Positions 1,307 through 5,448 of a DNA stretch of 5,448 bases are shown in pieces. The notes beneath the pieces were generated by a model. The model was given only the letters and a program-made list of their open reading frames with translations. It made no database searches and was not told the origin of the DNA. Source of the stretch: Clostridia bacterium. GTDB lineage: Bacteria > Bacillota_A > Clostridia > Oscillospirales > CAG-382. The translations under genes were made by a program, and so were the position numbers. The DNA lies in NCBI GenBank assembly GCA_017614095.1, contig JAGACN010000006.1, positions 1 through 5,448 of the forward strand, in the 5' to 3' direction. Positions within the stretch are counted from its first letter, which is position 1. Each line of letters starts with the position of its first letter.

Positions 1307-1332
1307 GCAACCGAACCCCTCTTTTTTCCGTC
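1307..1332 (+). promoter_or_regulatory. Candidate ECF-type promoter of the sigma/macroglobulin operon
   Basis: GCAACC (1307-1312) resembles the AAC-core -35 element of ECF promoters, and CGTC (1329-1332) resembles their -10 element. The spacing is 16 bases, in the usual range, and the spacer ends in a T run. A/T tracts (A at 1289-1294, T at 1299-1304) lie directly upstream, as an UP-like element would. Because the first gene downstream is itself an ECF sigma factor, the likely reading is autoregulation. A T-free palindrome-like motif is not needed for this call. The start site would fall near 1338-1342, giving a leader of about 60 bases. This is a motif match only. Confidence 0.55.
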
Positions 1333-1341
1333 TTGTCAAGA
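1331..1341. repeat. Small inverted repeat at the -10 / start-site region
   Basis: TCTTG-T-CAAGA is a perfect 5-bp inverted repeat around one central base. It overlaps the end of the candidate -10 element and the predicted start site. It could be an operator half-site pair, or simply chance; its position is the only reason to note it. Confidence 0.3.
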
Positions 1342-1401: not shown

Positions 1402-1971
1402 ATGGCAGCCGAAAAAGCCGGACTTCCGGACGACCGCACGCTCATCGGTCTGTATTTCGACCGGGACGAGCGCGCGATCACGGAGACCAAACAGAAATAC
1501 GGCGCGCTGATCCGCTCGATCGCCCTGCGTCTGCTGACCAACCCGTCCGACGCGGAGGAGTGCGAGAACGACGCCTATTTCCGGTTGTGGAACGCCATCC
1601 CGCCCGCAAGGCCGGACAACTTCGCCGCCTACGCCGCGAAGACGGTGCGCAACCTCGCGCTGGACAAACTGGAAAAGGACAACGCCGCGAAGCGCGGCGG
1701 GCGCCAGCTGGCATTGGAACTGAACGAGGCGCTGCCGGACAGCCGTTCGGACGACTACGCGCTGTCCGACCTGACCGGAGCCATCGACGCCTTCCTGCGG
1801 ACGGTCGAGAAGAAGGAGCGCATCCCGTTCCTGCTCCGGTATTTCCACGGCTTTTCCATCGACGAGATCGCGACCAAATGCGGATGCTCACCCGGAGCGG
1901 TCAAAAGCCAGCTCCTGCGGACAAGAAACATATTGAAGACCTATCTGGAAAGAGGAGGTTACGCACTATGA
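1402..1971 (+). CDS. ECF-type RNA polymerase sigma factor (sigma-70 family)
   Basis: This 189-residue protein has the usual ECF length and two-domain layout. Region 2 lies at about 25-92: YGALIRSIALRLL, then the acidic DAEECENDAYFRLWNAIPP stretch, then FAAYAAKTVRNLALDKLEK, the core-binding and -10-recognising part. A short linker (95-122) follows. Region 4 lies at about 125-183, with RIPFLLRYFHGFSIDEIATK and CSPGAVKSQLLRTRNILKTYL forming the -35-binding helix-turn-helix. It should direct RNA polymerase to a small regulon, probably including its own promoter. ATG 1402 is the first usable start after the in-frame TGA at 1342-1344, and it has only a weak ribosome site (AGGAAA, 5 bases away). The end overlaps the next gene as ATGA, so the two are translationally coupled. 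No separate anti-sigma gene is seen; the next protein has that position. The family is secure; the ECF subgroup is not resolved. Confidence 0.93.
   Translation: MAAEKAGLPDDRTLIGLYFDRDERAITETKQKYGALIRSIALRLLTNPSDAEECENDAYFRLWNAIPPARPDNFAAYAAKTVRNLALDKLEKDNAAKRGGRQLALELNEALPDSRSDDYALSDLTGAIDAFLRTVEKKERIPFLLRYFHGFSIDEIATKCGCSPGAVKSQLLRTRNILKTYLERGGYAL
1953..1959 (+). promoter_or_regulatory. Strong Shine-Dalgarno site of the macroglobulin gene
   Basis: AGGAGGT lies within the last codons of the sigma gene, 8 bases before ATG 1968. It is much stronger than the sigma gene's own AGGAAA, suggesting more macroglobulin than sigma factor is made per transcript. It settles the start at the ATGA overlap. 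Confidence 0.8.
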
Positions 1972-4900
1972 ACGAACACAACGAACGGGACGAATCCTTA
2001 AAGCTGCTGTCGTCCGTCGGAGAGATCGGAGACGATCTGCTGCAGGAAACGAACGACTTTCTGACTTCGCCCGAAAAACAGACGTCCGGACGGACGCCGG
2101 ACACCGGGAACGGCAAGCGGAAGAACCGCTTCTCGTCCTTCTTCCGGTCCCACAAGGCCGGACTGATCGCGGCGGCGCTTTCGATCGTCCTGCTGGGCGG
2201 CATCCTGGTCCCGGTCTTTCTGCTGAACCGGCCGGCAGACAATCCGAAGCCGAACGAGTCTGGCTCCTTCGTCGACCCCGTCATCGATCCCGTGATCGAC
2301 CCGATCCAACCGTCCTATAACTCGGACGTCTATACGGAAGTGCCGGACGCGCTCCGGCAACTGACCGTCACGGCGGAATCCGAGGACGGGGAACCCGTTT
2401 CCGGGCGCATCATCCCCACGAAGGCGGTCTTACGCGTGCAGACGTCCTCCGCCTGCGATACCGACACGCTGACCGATTTTGTCCGCGTCTCGCCTTCCGT
2501 CCCGCTGTCCGTCACGAAGGAATCCGACACCTCCTTCCGTTTGCAGCCGGCGGGGACCGCGTTCGCGCCTGACACCGTCTACCGGCTGACCGTCGGGGAC
2601 CCGGAAAACCCGGACGCGAGCTTCGCTTTCCAGACGGCCTCCGAGCCGCACATCCAGTATGTGCTCCCTGCAGACCGCAGGACGGGCGTTCCGGTCTCGA
2701 CCGGCATCGAGATCTATTTTTCGGAAGCGGTCAAGGCGTCCGCGTCGGATCTCGCCTCCATCTTCTCGATCACGCCGGACGTCGAGGGCTTTTTCCAGAT
2801 CTCGACGGACGGAAAGACGGTCGCCTTCGTTCCGGAGCAAAATCTGGCATACGACACCGTCTATACGGTCACCGTCGGATCCGGTCTGACCGGCGTCAGC
2901 GGAAAACCGATCACAGACGGGAAAACGTTTTCCTTCCGCACGGTCTCCGAAGAGTCGGAAAAAGCGTCCGTTGATTTCATCGCGTCCGTTTACGACGCCT
3001 TCACCAACCGCGCGCAGGGGGTCTGGACCGTTTACAGTCCGAAAAGCACGATCCGGATCGTTGCCGACCTGACCCTGTTCGACGATCAGGGAAGCTACGT
3101 TCCCTACCGGCAGTCCCAGGAACTGCTCGAGAACGGAAAAGTGAAAGTGACTGCGACCTTCTACCGCGCGAAGGATCTGTCCAAAGTGGCGGACGCGCTT
3201 CTGAAAAGCGAGGAACGGGTATTCAACCTGGAGATATCGGCTCCGGAACCGGATCTTTCACTGTTTGAGAAAACGTCCGAATGGACCTTCGCGCACGAAA
3301 AGGACAGAACCCGGATGCAGGCCGAAGGTCATCTCGACGAAGAGGGCTTTTACGTCGCGGAGATCAAAGCCGCCTACCGGTCCGCCACGAGGGTGCGCTA
3401 CCAGATGATCTCCGTCTCTTCCCTGCGCTACGGCGCCATGACTTCCGACGGCAGCACGCTGCTGTACGTCACGGATGACAGCGGAAATCCCGTTGCCGGG
3501 GCCGCCGTTGAGGGAACTGCCTACGATGCCGGCAGATGGGAATCCGCTCTCCGGAAGGAACCCTTCCGGACGGAAACCGCTTCCGACGGAACCGCGCTGA
3601 TCGAAAACGGAACATGCAACTATCTGCTCTTCCGCGTCTCCGCGGCCGGGAAAGAACTGCTCGTTTTCGGGTCCGGCGCCGTCACGGACGACAATCCCTA
3701 CTATCTGAATACGATGTACACCGACCGCACCGTCTATTTCTCCACCGACACCATCCACGTATGGGGCACGGTCCGTCGGCGGTATACGGAAGATCCGTAC
3801 GCGGAAGGCTGCTATTATCTGGCCACGCCGTTCGACTCGCGGAAGATCCCCGTTGTGCTCGACGAAAACGGCTGTTTCGAAGCCGCGATCGCCATCGAGG
3901 ACGTCGAAAACATCTGGAGCGGATCCGTCCGGCTGGTCGATGATGAAGACCGGATCGTCTCAAGCCGTTCCATCCGCATCACGCGGGAGGAAAAGCCAGT
4001 CGTCAACGGAACGATCGAATTCGACAAGCCCTTCTATACGTTCGGGGAAACGATCGTAGGCGTCTTCCGTGCGGCCTTCTTCGACGGGACGCCCGCCCCC
4101 GGATACCAGATCCGGCTGAACGCCTCGACCTTCCACGTCAACCAGTCCGGAAACGTCACCGACGAAAACGGCGAACTGCATTTCTCCATCCCGACCGGAG
4201 TCGTCCATGCCCAAAGCACCGATCCGTATACCATCTCCGTCCGGGGCTATCTGACCGGCGAAGGAACGGATGAGGTCGACGTCCGGGCCTCCGTTCCCTA
4301 TTACCATTCGGACTACGTATACCGCCTCGAACGGACGGAAAACCATGTCCGCCTGCTGCTGAACGAACGCGATTTTGCCGGATTCCCGGACGACACGATC
4401 GGGCAGCCGGCCGAAGGATACGCGTCCGTCTCGCTGATCAAATACACGCTCAAAGTGACGGAATCGACCGAATACGATTCCTATTCCAAACGCCGGTATA
4501 CCGTCTATTCCACGGATATCTCCGAATCGACGGTCAAGACCGAGATCCTGTATTTCGAGAACGGCGTCATCGAACTGGACTATGTGGAATCCGACAGCGA
4601 CAAGGTGTGGTACAACTACGAAGCCATGTTCCATGACGGCCACAACGCCTTCCGGCTGGCGTCCTCCGCGCAGAAGTACCGCTGGACGTCCTATTACGAT
4701 ACCGGGCTTCTCGTCAATCTGAACGCCGACAAATCCGCCTATCTGCCCGGCGAGACCGTGCACGTGTCGCTGGAGGGCGTGGCGGTGCCGGACCAAGCGC
4801 TGTACGCTTTCTATTCGAACGGCTACATCGCACACGCGGTCGGAAGAGACGCGTCCCTGCAATTCGCGGAAGATATGATCCCGGCTCTGGTCTGCGACGC

Positions 4901-5448
4901 GCTGTATTTCGATCCGGGCACTTCTGTGATCTCCTTCGTGTCCACGACCGTGACCTACGACGTGGAGAACTCCGTCCGCGAGATGGCCGTTCGGACCGAC
5001 AGCGAGACCTACCGGCCGGGCGAACAGGCAACCATCACCGTCTCCGCACCCGGACTGGCCGGAGGCAGTGCGCTGATCAGCATCACGGACGAAGCCTGTT
5101 TCGCGCTGGGCGAAGACAATTACGACGTCCGCGGTTTCTTCGCCGGGCAGACCTCCGCCTGGTACAGTTATATGGACGCCTATTATATAACTGCTTACAT
5201 GTCTTCATCCGTCAAGCAGGTGTACCGGTTCCGGCCGCAGAACTTCTTTACGTCCGGACGTCTCTCGAACCGATCCAGCTACAGGGGCGAGTGGTACAAT
5301 GAAGAAATTGATTATGGCGGACCCGACGATGCTCTGCAATATGAAGCGGCCGACGGCAATATGGACGAAACCGTCGAGACCAATAACCGCGAGCGCTTCG
5401 AAGACACGGCCGCGTACGTAGACGTCCCGATCGGAAACGACGGGACCG
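1968..5448 (+). CDS. Membrane-anchored alpha-2-macroglobulin-like protein with N-terminal Ig-like domains (3' truncated)
   Basis: The frame is open for 1160 codons and runs off the window. Residues 1-63 are polar and end in a basic stretch (KRKNRFSSFFRSHK); residues 64-86 form one transmembrane helix, with a cytoplasmic N-terminus predicted. A Pro/Asp linker (about 87-118) follows. Two Ig-like domains come next: a degenerate one (about 125-223) and a clear SbsA-type one (about 228-326, with LPADRRTGVPVSTGIEIYFS and FVPEQNLAYDTVYTVTV). Macroglobulin domains follow: LLYVTDDSGNPVAGAAVEGT (498-517), YTDRTVYFSTDTIHVWG (584-600), FDKPFYTFGETI (685-696), DKSAYLPGETVHVSLEG (921-937), SETYRPGEQATITV (1012-1025), and ALISITDEACFALG (1035-1048), the usual stretch near the bait region. 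RERFEDTAAYVDVP (1141-1154) begins the A2M domain. Family members trap proteases that cut the bait. The thioester and C-terminus are outside the window, so trapping chemistry cannot be judged. There is no lipobox, unlike the lipoprotein YfhM of E. coli. It is coupled to the ECF sigma gene. Family confidence is high. Confidence 0.88.
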   Translation, partial: MNEHNERDESLKLLSSVGEIGDDLLQETNDFLTSPEKQTSGRTPDTGNGKRKNRFSSFFRSHKAGLIAAALSIVLLGGILVPVFLLNRPADNPKPNESGSFVDPVIDPVIDPIQPSYNSDVYTEVPDALRQLTVTAESEDGEPVSGRIIPTKAVLRVQTSSACDTDTLTDFVRVSPSVPLSVTKESDTSFRLQPAGTAFAPDTVYRLTVGDPENPDASFAFQTASEPHIQYVLPADRRTGVPVSTGIEIYFSEAVKASASDLASIFSITPDVEGFFQISTDGKTVAFVPEQNLAYDTVYTVTVGSGLTGVSGKPITDGKTFSFRTVSEESEKASVDFIASVYDAFTNRAQGVWTVYSPKSTIRIVADLTLFDDQGSYVPYRQSQELLENGKVKVTATFYRAKDLSKVADALLKSEERVFNLEISAPEPDLSLFEKTSEWTFAHEKDRTRMQAEGHLDEEGFYVAEIKAAYRSATRVRYQMISVSSLRYGAMTSDGSTLLYVTDDSGNPVAGAAVEGTAYDAGRWESALRKEPFRTETASDGTALIENGTCNYLLFRVSAAGKELLVFGSGAVTDDNPYYLNTMYTDRTVYFSTDTIHVWGTVRRRYTEDPYAEGCYYLATPFDSRKIPVVLDENGCFEAAIAIEDVENIWSGSVRLVDDEDRIVSSRSIRITREEKPVVNGTIEFDKPFYTFGETIVGVFRAAFFDGTPAPGYQIRLNASTFHVNQSGNVTDENGELHFSIPTGVVHAQSTDPYTISVRGYLTGEGTDEVDVRASVPYYHSDYVYRLERTENHVRLLLNERDFAGFPDDTIGQPAEGYASVSLIKYTLKVTESTEYDSYSKRRYTVYSTDISESTVKTEILYFENGVIELDYVESDSDKVWYNYEAMFHDGHNAFRLASSAQKYRWTSYYDTGLLVNLNADKSAYLPGETVHVSLEGVAVPDQALYAFYSNGYIAHAVGRDASLQFAEDMIPALVCDALYFDPGTSVISFVSTTVTYDVENSVREMAVRTDSETYRPGEQATITVSAPGLAGGSALISITDEACFALGEDNYDVRGFFAGQTSAWYSYMDAYYITAYMSSSVKQVYRFRPQNFFTSGRLSNRSSYRGEWYNEEIDYGGPDDALQYEAADGNMDETVETNNRERFEDTAAYVDVPIGNDGT
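2274..2306 (+). repeat. Short Asp-Pro-Val-Ile repeat in the extracellular linker
   Basis: Residues 103-113 read DPVIDPVIDPI, nearly three copies of a 4-residue unit just outside the membrane helix of the macroglobulin-like protein. The DNA copies differ at wobble positions. It is probably a stiff spacer lifting the Ig-like domains off the membrane or through the wall. Confidence 0.6.
5107..5388 (+). other. Predicted bait region of the macroglobulin-like protein
   Basis: Residues about 1047-1140 lie between the ISITDEACFAL motif and the RERFEDTA start of the A2M domain, where bacterial macroglobulins carry the exposed bait and MG6 region. It is rich in Tyr and Ser, then strongly acidic (NEEIDYGGPDDALQYEAADG, 1111-1130), with scattered Arg/Lys that proteases could cut. 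Bases 5161-5220 are only about 42% GC and use codons rare elsewhere in the gene (ATA, ACT, TCT, TCA). Exact borders of the bait cannot be set from one sequence. Confidence 0.45.

Follow-up and report, generated by a model that had tools for sequence, protein, structure and literature searches.

An alpha-2-macroglobulin as the probable membrane anti-sigma factor of an ECF sigma factor in Clostridia

Background

The stretch of 5,448 nt from contig JAGACN010000006.1 of an uncultured, gut-type Clostridia bacterium (hereafter the window) contains an extracytoplasmic function (ECF) sigma factor gene that runs directly into the gene of a membrane protein with an alpha-2-macroglobulin (A2M) outside the cell. 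This arrangement raises the question of whether the macroglobulin is itself the anti-sigma factor of the preceding sigma factor and, if so, what it senses. What bacterial macroglobulins do is not settled, and we know of no earlier description of a bacterial sensor that detects protease attack directly through bait cleavage. An original prediction, made from the window alone, had proposed that the macroglobulin occupies the anti-sigma role. The proposal is well supported by the comparative evidence, namely the conserved coupling of the two genes, a cytoplasmic tail shared with paralogs, the joint gain and loss of tail and sigma gene, and macroglobulins fused to the anti-sigma domain zf-HC2, so that the macroglobulin is very probably the cognate membrane anti-sigma factor. 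Loci, genomes, homologous proteins and contigs are cited by our own numbers with the prefixes L, G, P and C.

The sigma gene and its overlap with the macroglobulin gene

The open reading frame taken as the sigma gene encodes a short protein with both regions typical of an ECF sigma factor, Sigma70_r2 (PF04542, 47.8 bits) and Sigma70_r4_2 (PF08281, 51.1 bits), each above the Pfam cut-off, and it scores 73.4 bits with TIGR02937 (cut-off 42.9). Its end shares the four nucleotides ATGA (1968-1971) with the start of the macroglobulin gene, which is preceded by AGGAGG at 1953-1958, and by this overlap the adjoining gene appears to lie in the same operon, as is usual for a membrane anti-sigma factor. 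The macroglobulin frame stays open to the end of the window with 1160 residues visible; close full-length homologs have 1789 and 1787 residues (94% and 84% identity), so that about 630 residues should lie beyond the window. Both the overlap and the predicted layout of a 63-residue cytoplasmic tail, a single transmembrane helix and a large extracellular macroglobulin were borne out.

A single scan of GTDB species genomes with an alignment of tailed macroglobulins gave 30 loci, all from records titled Clostridia, Clostridiales or Oscillospiraceae. Among the 28 with a visible macroglobulin start, a sigma-like gene lies directly 5' in 16 (14 with an ECF sigma gene of the window's kind, hereafter type I, and two with a variant) and no such gene in 12. 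All 14 type-I relatives keep an ATGA or GTGA overlap at only 31-38% macroglobulin identity to the query, so the adjacency that the original prediction proposed to check across genomes is conserved in diverged relatives; the overlap is longer in the two relatives that carry a different regulator gene. No separate anti-sigma gene was noticed 3' of the macroglobulin gene when 12 relative neighbourhoods were inspected by eye, with no family search and with one neighbourhood ending at a contig end, and L001-L003 have a convergent gene in that place. On these grounds the possibility of a second anti-sigma gene, which had been named as a finding that would count against the macroglobulin, was set aside.

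Gain and loss of sigma gene and tail

When 101 macroglobulin genes were tabulated, 31 had both a tail and a sigma gene, 64 had neither, five had a tail only and one had a sigma gene only, its tail of 27 residues being one below the length limit (Fisher p = 1e-19). This count omits five genes with unmatched start strings (L147, L150, L172, L188 and L190, all without a sigma gene), two repeats (L132 of L015 and L186 of L089) and two genes lacking the N-terminus (L136 and L187), and includes L133, which repeats L005. The sigma profile that was applied had been built partly from the same loci, and unfamiliar sigma types could escape it.

In macroglobulin trees of 51 and 69 rows, obtained by quick searches and rooted at the midpoint, type I is nested among sigma-less macroglobulins. 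Within type I, L008 and L010 have neither sigma gene nor tail, and L015 has no sigma gene and a degenerate tail. Their neighbours in the tree are L006 and L019, where the place of the sigma gene is taken by a gene (1483-1986 and 2491-2997, respectively) for a protein with an N-terminal XRE-type helix-turn-helix, so named from its sequence, and a sigma-4-like end; the macroglobulin tail is altered in both. Among the possible refutations listed beforehand was that most homologs would stand apart from any sigma gene or have no tail. For the macroglobulin family at large this is the case, with 69 of the 101 genes lacking a sigma gene; within the window's own clade it is not, as a regulator gene is present in 17 of 20 rows and the tail is missing or degenerate in the other three.

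A tail family shared with paralogs that carry other outside parts

Proteins P0003-P0008 have a tail of the form xxMLxAVGxIGDDLxxEA followed by one transmembrane helix. The acidic helix VGEIGDDLLQETNDFL, which the original prediction had likened to a motif of many Firmicutes proteins encoded next to ECF sigma genes, proved to belong to a testable tail family, conserved in these six proteins and looser in paralogs without a macroglobulin; its position is corrected from residues 16-31 to 17-32. Among the distant P0009-P0026, 13 of 18 N-termini are lipoprotein-like by eye and five have another short N-terminal anchor. The structure model of the window tail predicts two short helices (9-16 and 22-33) with low values of the predicted local distance difference test (pLDDT).

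A profile trained on 42 tails of non-macroglobulin paralogs alone matched 21 of 23 type-I macroglobulin tails at 12.8-35.6 bits, a set that includes the near-duplicates window/P0003/P0004 and P0007/L009; the two tails missed are those of L006 (3.8 bits) and L019 (3.5 bits). The window tail scored 15.1 bits, against at most 9.8 bits for 1150 shuffled type-I tails, and so has the conserved N-terminal cytoplasmic domain followed by a transmembrane helix that characterises membrane anti-sigma factors. None of 50 other macroglobulin N-termini matched (at most 1.7 bits), and of 519 control open reading frame starts, macroglobulins included, one unrelated frame reached 13.8 bits. Tail starts were picked partly by closeness to the sigma stop and by the transmembrane helix that follows, which biases the comparison toward finding tails. 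The window protein has no Pfam match at E <= 0.1 to zf-HC2 (PF13490), the zinc anti-sigma domain of class I, in agreement with the predicted lack of a His/Cys zinc motif; nor does Pfam find RsgI_M in it, though this domain is present in the same-tail paralogs L091 and L094.

Paralogs of the window sigma factor are numerous (23 matches in G006 and 12 in G009), and most are followed by a gene for a membrane protein with a similar tail and another outside part. In pairs without a macroglobulin, the downstream start that was chosen lies -11 to +23 nt from the sigma stop in 43 of 45, and an overlap of the ATGA/GTGA type is present in 32 of 45, one of these being a doubtful 28-residue frame. Ten of the downstream proteins were searched with Pfam: RsgI_M, the central domain of a known anti-sigma family, was found in two (E 6e-21 and 2e-18), LRR_5 in two and no match in six. 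The macroglobulin-linked type-I sigma factors form one clade of 15 rows (SH-aLRT 94) among 44 paralogs.

Loci L091, L092, L094, L099, L104 and L106, along with others in G006, G008 and G009, form a large family of ECF sigma factors and short-tailed membrane proteins within single metagenome-assembled genomes. The outside parts in this family include RsgI_M, BspA-type leucine-rich repeats and solute-binding-protein-like domains, the last recognised from sequence only.

Other sigma and tail modules joined to macroglobulins

At least five distinct combinations of sigma factor and tail are found with macroglobulins. Type II, at six loci, has a canonical ECF sigma factor (one checked with Pfam) and the tail MSKLxxLREIVDxHL. 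Type III, at five loci, has a divergent sigma factor in which Pfam regions 2 and 4 are both above cut-off in L079 and L080, region 4 only in L088, and neither in L084 and L085. In type IV (L152 and L156), an ECF sigma gene lies 109 and 130 nt 5' of a macroglobulin gene whose product has an N-terminal zf-HC2 (39.9 and 37.3 bits, cut-off 22.2). Type V (L182 and L184) combines a short tail with a sigma factor whose nearest model, scoring under its cut-off, is NCBIfam TIGR02954; models for SigV and SigM are also among the matches. Type IV is the strongest single argument for the proposed role, because the macroglobulin there carries an independently recognised anti-sigma domain. Six changes of sigma state were counted on the macroglobulin tree, gains and losses together, and types III and V are sisters; the types are different modules, but how many times they arose independently is less sure. 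The frame at 276-825 of L084 is a degenerate type III sigma gene, with a weak region 4 match only, and still adjoins a tailed macroglobulin gene.

A promoter common to the macroglobulin-linked operons

A scan of the window for sigma-70-type promoters gave no matches, and the ECF-type site listed in Table 1 was found through comparison of relatives. It ends 67 nt before the sigma start codon; the site itself had been predicted, with its end placed at 1332 rather than 1334. Of 15 macroglobulin-linked regions scored, L019 was kept apart because its sigma gene is replaced; among the remaining 14 type-I regions, 10 contain GAAACC-N14..17-CGTCTT at 11/12 or better (spacer N15 or N16), as opposed to none of 45 paralog regions, which include repeats (L045 recurs in L101, and L052 and L059 are nearly alike). 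Shuffled regions reached this score in 0.3-0.6% of cases. Since the motif was read off the macroglobulin-linked regions, its fit to them is partly circular, and the 45 paralog regions serve as the control. L004, L005 and L016 have a variant -10 element, CAACAT. Judged by eye and without statistics, type II regions share TGTAAY-N-CGTCTA, L194 has AACC-N-CGTCTAAT, and type III promoters, where visible, resemble housekeeping ones.

With at most one mismatch, the motif occurs in G001 and G003 solely at the sigma-macroglobulin operon, while G002 and G008 have three and four additional sites; allowing one mismatch, the four genomes gave 11 matches as opposed to seven for the control. A promoter common to the macroglobulin-linked operons and not to the 45 paralogs suggests autoregulation, and its conservation means that the site at 1307-1334 fits an autoregulated operon.

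The outside part as a thioester-free macroglobulin

The window protein combines the A2M bait region domain with a macroglobulin fold and so belongs to the A2M family. Its structure model (mean pLDDT 74.4, predicted TM-score 0.55) has its best PDB structure matches in the A2Ms of E. coli and Salmonella. Foldseek gives these matches TM-scores of only 0.28-0.34 by query length, which is what misplaced domains in the model would produce, and a PDB sequence search with the window macroglobulin gave no matches at E <= 0.01. The C-terminal half of a relative, L014, matches the structures of complement C3/C5 and of the E. coli and Salmonella A2Ms. An A2M domain is above cut-off in P0005, P0006, P0007 and P0018, and just under it in P0004, the nearest homolog tested (18.9 bits versus 21).

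The thioester string CxEQ is absent from the full-length relatives P0003 and P0004 (the window stops before the thioester domain) and from 65 of 69 long macroglobulin sequences; the other four have it at residue 816 (L001 and L002) or at residue 1459 or 1464 (L070 and L074). These absences point to a thioester-free A2M. Judged from the sequences, they weigh against an A2M of type I and not against one of type II, numerals that here denote A2M classes and not sigma types.

The bait-like segment that follows the bait region domain varies more than most of the outside part before it: residues 1049-1141 are identical to P0003 at 85 of 93 positions (91%) and to P0004 at 50 of 91 aligned (55%), as compared with 916 (98%) and 828 (89%) of 933 over residues 116-1048. 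Between L004 and L005, dN/dS in the bait is 0.74, versus 0.11-0.40 in the tail and in segments of up to 150 residues, the 0.40 segment itself overlapping the bait. The last 41 residues of the window (5325-5448) share 78% identity with P0003, the differences falling at positions that are conserved elsewhere, and reflect either variation between strains in the bait or mistakes in the sequence at the contig edge. At the other end, residues 1-115 (1968-2312; tail, transmembrane helix and linker) are about 54-74% identical to P0003, of which the tail is nearly like that of P0004, and the 5' end of the gene is possibly a mosaic of alleles.

Discussion

What was observed directly across relatives is the order and overlap of the genes, the tail family, the fold, the conserved promoter and the joint gain and loss. 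Beyond these, we infer that the tail would bind the sigma factor and hold it at the membrane, while the thioester-free A2M outside would do the sensing. The signal received there, most probably a protease that cuts the bait and collapses the fold, would expose the juxtamembrane linker, residues 87-115, a possible zone of site-1 cleavage. A site-2 protease would then free the tail, which would be degraded, and the released sigma factor would use the promoter at 1307-1334 to transcribe its own sigma-macroglobulin operon, so that the first response would be to make more of the trap. We hold this explanation as a whole, with tail, sensor, signal-triggered proteolysis and autoactivation, to be likely. 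Release by intramembrane proteolysis is somewhat probable, and the chances that a protease is the trigger are about even.

The precedents for the individual steps come from other systems, as described in the portions of the papers cited. Bait cleavage in E. coli A2M causes a global conformational change (PMC4498604), the thioester-free A2M MagD of Pseudomonas aeruginosa still traps protease after bait cleavage (PMC5764988, where a TEV site was also introduced into its bait), and the anti-sigma factor RsiV undergoes a change on ligand binding that lays site 1 open (PMC4183432). Combined, they make a signal on the macroglobulin, exposure of the linker and two-step cleavage the most economical model.

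Several observations weigh against this model or limit it. Most macroglobulins examined in the class (69/101) are without a sigma gene, and the macroglobulin must therefore have another role, probably an older one; five (L015, L070, L074, L076 and L189) have a long cytoplasmic N-terminus and no sigma gene. Relatedness leaves about five phylogenetically independent contrasts of sigma gene and tail, of which a mean of 3.8 agree and none oppose (sign test p 0.125), so the table of 101 genes alone is not decisive. The exact pattern GAAAC-N15..18-CGTCTTA gave 14 matches in 12 genomes (0-4 per genome), five of them at sigma-macroglobulin operons, versus 15 for the reversed control, and a wide regulon was dropped for want of support. 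Divergence of the bait is clear between L004 and L005 and between the window and P0004, and weak between L001 and L002, where its dN/dS is only 0.33, within the range of that pair's other segments; the window tail (44 of 63 positions identical) and linker also diverge from P0003 more than the macroglobulin part does. Candidate M50 site-2 proteases occur in all 12 genomes searched, which is weak support given that such proteases are nearly universal (control 14/14). About 960 residues separate the bait from the membrane, and cleavage there does not by itself sever the tether.

A rival reading keeps the anti-sigma role and changes the signal. The macroglobulin could be the anti-sigma factor and respond to ligand binding, as RsiV does to lysozyme, or to envelope damage, with an ordinary site-1 protease cutting the linker. 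The RsiV mechanism cited above is a precedent for this, LRR_5 and other folds take the outside position in paralogs with the same tail, a long distance separates bait and membrane, and nearly all of the long macroglobulins lack CxEQ. However, a fast-evolving, poorly ordered bait-like segment has been retained, and MagD, also free of a thioester, still traps a protease once its bait is cut. We regard this alternative as less likely than not.

Explanations that deny the anti-sigma role fare worse. If the macroglobulin were only an effector, the sigma factor would control its synthesis, something else would regulate the sigma factor and the tail would be a mere membrane anchor. The operon promoter does resemble a target of the sigma factor, with G001 and G003 having no other copy of the motif, and sigma-less macroglobulins, presumably protease traps, exist. 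Nevertheless, we consider this improbable, as the tail is specific to the sigma-linked paralog family and was not found in the 50 other macroglobulin N-termini, macroglobulins with zf-HC2 exist, and inspection by eye revealed no other regulator gene 3' of the pair, where the next gene is convergent in L001-L003. That the two genes are unrelated in function and adjacent by chance might be suggested by the position of most macroglobulins examined in the class away from sigma genes, yet the same overlap in all 14 type-I relatives at 31-38% identity, five or more sigma types with a macroglobulin and joint losses make the idea negligible, and the linkage conserved in diverged relatives rules it out.

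Among known systems, RsiV/sigma-V of Bacillus subtilis and Clostridioides difficile is alike in that an ECF sigma factor is held by a membrane anti-sigma factor with an outside part that acts as sensor, and the type V sigma factors of L182 and L184 are near to it by their TIGR02954, SigV and SigM matches. It differs in its outside part, a lysozyme-binding domain where the protein studied here has a macroglobulin of about 1700 residues, and the window tail belongs to another tail family. RsgI/SigI of Clostridium thermocellum has several paralogous pairs per genome with exchangeable outside sensors, according to the portion cited (PMC12203970), and two paralogs with a tail of the window's family contain RsgI_M; unlike that system, the window has a sigma factor that is ECF-type by the Pfam and TIGR02937 models alone, a protein without RsgI_M, and a macroglobulin as sensor. 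MagD, a type II A2M, shares the bait region, the lack of a CxEQ thioester and association with the inner membrane, but has a signal sequence and a six-gene mag operon, and the available part of its description contains no fused cytoplasmic tail or ECF sigma partner (PMC5764988). In place of such an operon there is a pair of sigma and macroglobulin genes, followed in L001-L003 by a convergent gene, although no family search for mag genes was made. In CnrY/CnrH, of class II, the cytoplasmic anti-sigma region is very short and has two helices (PMC7406223, in the part cited); the likeness of the window tail to it is one of size and two predicted helices, and not of sequence or fold.

The literature searched held no paper linking a macroglobulin to anti-sigma factors, PMC12839542 and PMC5063857 using both terms incidentally in the text available. 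What is new is the combination of three elements already known singly: membrane anti-sigma factors, exchangeable sensors and type II A2Ms. Tentatively, and with somewhat less than even confidence, we suggest that Clostridia wired A2Ms to ECF sigma factors through at least five modules as a receptor for protease attack, in which a cut in the bait would set off intramembrane proteolysis, release the sigma factor and replenish the cell surface with fresh macroglobulin, sensor and effector being one molecule. Were bait cleavage the trigger, a fold shared with complement C3 would serve as a bacterial transmembrane alarm. The modular family, with one short tail, many outside parts and a sigma factor for each, also offers a route to assigning signals to unannotated anti-sigma candidates in gut Clostridia.

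Features of the window and neighbouring genes

Table 1. Features assigned to the window, with positions counted from its first nucleotide
Feature	Position	Strand	Basis
ECF-type promoter-like site GCAACC-N16-CGTCTT	1307..1334	+	11/12 match to GAAACC-N14..17-CGTCTT
ECF sigma factor, 189 aa	1402..1971	+	Pfam r2/r4_2; falls within the clade of macroglobulin-linked sigma factors
Proposed membrane anti-sigma factor with extracellular macroglobulin, cut by the window end	1968..5448	+	ATGA overlap, Pfam, homologs, model
Cytoplasmic tail, residues 1-63, proposed sigma-binding region	1968..2156	+	Tail profile, 15.1 bits
Acidic helix motif VGEIGDDLLQETNDFL, residues 17-32	2016..2063	+	Conserved in P0003-P0008; looser in non-macroglobulin paralogs
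Transmembrane helix, residues 64-86	2157..2225	+	Hydropathy; model helix 64-86, low pLDDT
Juxtamembrane linker, residues 87-115	2226..2312	+	pLDDT <50 up to residue 114
Big_5 Ig-like domain, residues 225-325	2640..2942	+	Pfam PF13205, 73.5 bits
A2M_BRD bait region domain, residues 917-1047	4716..5108	+	Pfam PF07703, 37.3 bits, cut-off 22.7
Bait-like variable segment, residues ~1049-1141	5112..5390	+	pLDDT <50 at 1060-1079 and 1097-1147; sequence divergence

In L028 and L029 the macroglobulin reading frame is broken in two, by a frameshift or an assembly error in each case. Contig C14 of G086 carries tandem macroglobulin genes at 18217-27777 (frames of 1661 and 1636 residues), with no sigma gene detected 5' of one of them (L188).

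Upstream of the promoter, the window contains a gene of the endonuclease/exonuclease/phosphatase family (133-1245) with an N-terminal hydrophobic helix and an in-frame TAG at 508-510, which may be a nonsense change, a sequence error or a case of codon recoding. It is followed at 1261-1288 by the hairpin ATCCCGC-CCGAT-GCGGGAT and then TTCTTTTT on the + strand, likely a terminator that parts the nuclease gene from the sigma operon; a terminator scan reports this hairpin on the - strand only, and the + strand reading comes from direct inspection. Nuclease-like genes of the same family by sequence stand just 5' of sigma-less macroglobulin genes in L013 (6558-7827) and L028 (6838-7699), and 5' of the sigma gene in the window. 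In L014, the end of a small membrane-protein gene (QFLALIIIV...), 5' of 4158, lies directly before the sigma-macroglobulin pair, unlike the window, where the nuclease gene stands between the end of such a gene (1-87) and the pair.

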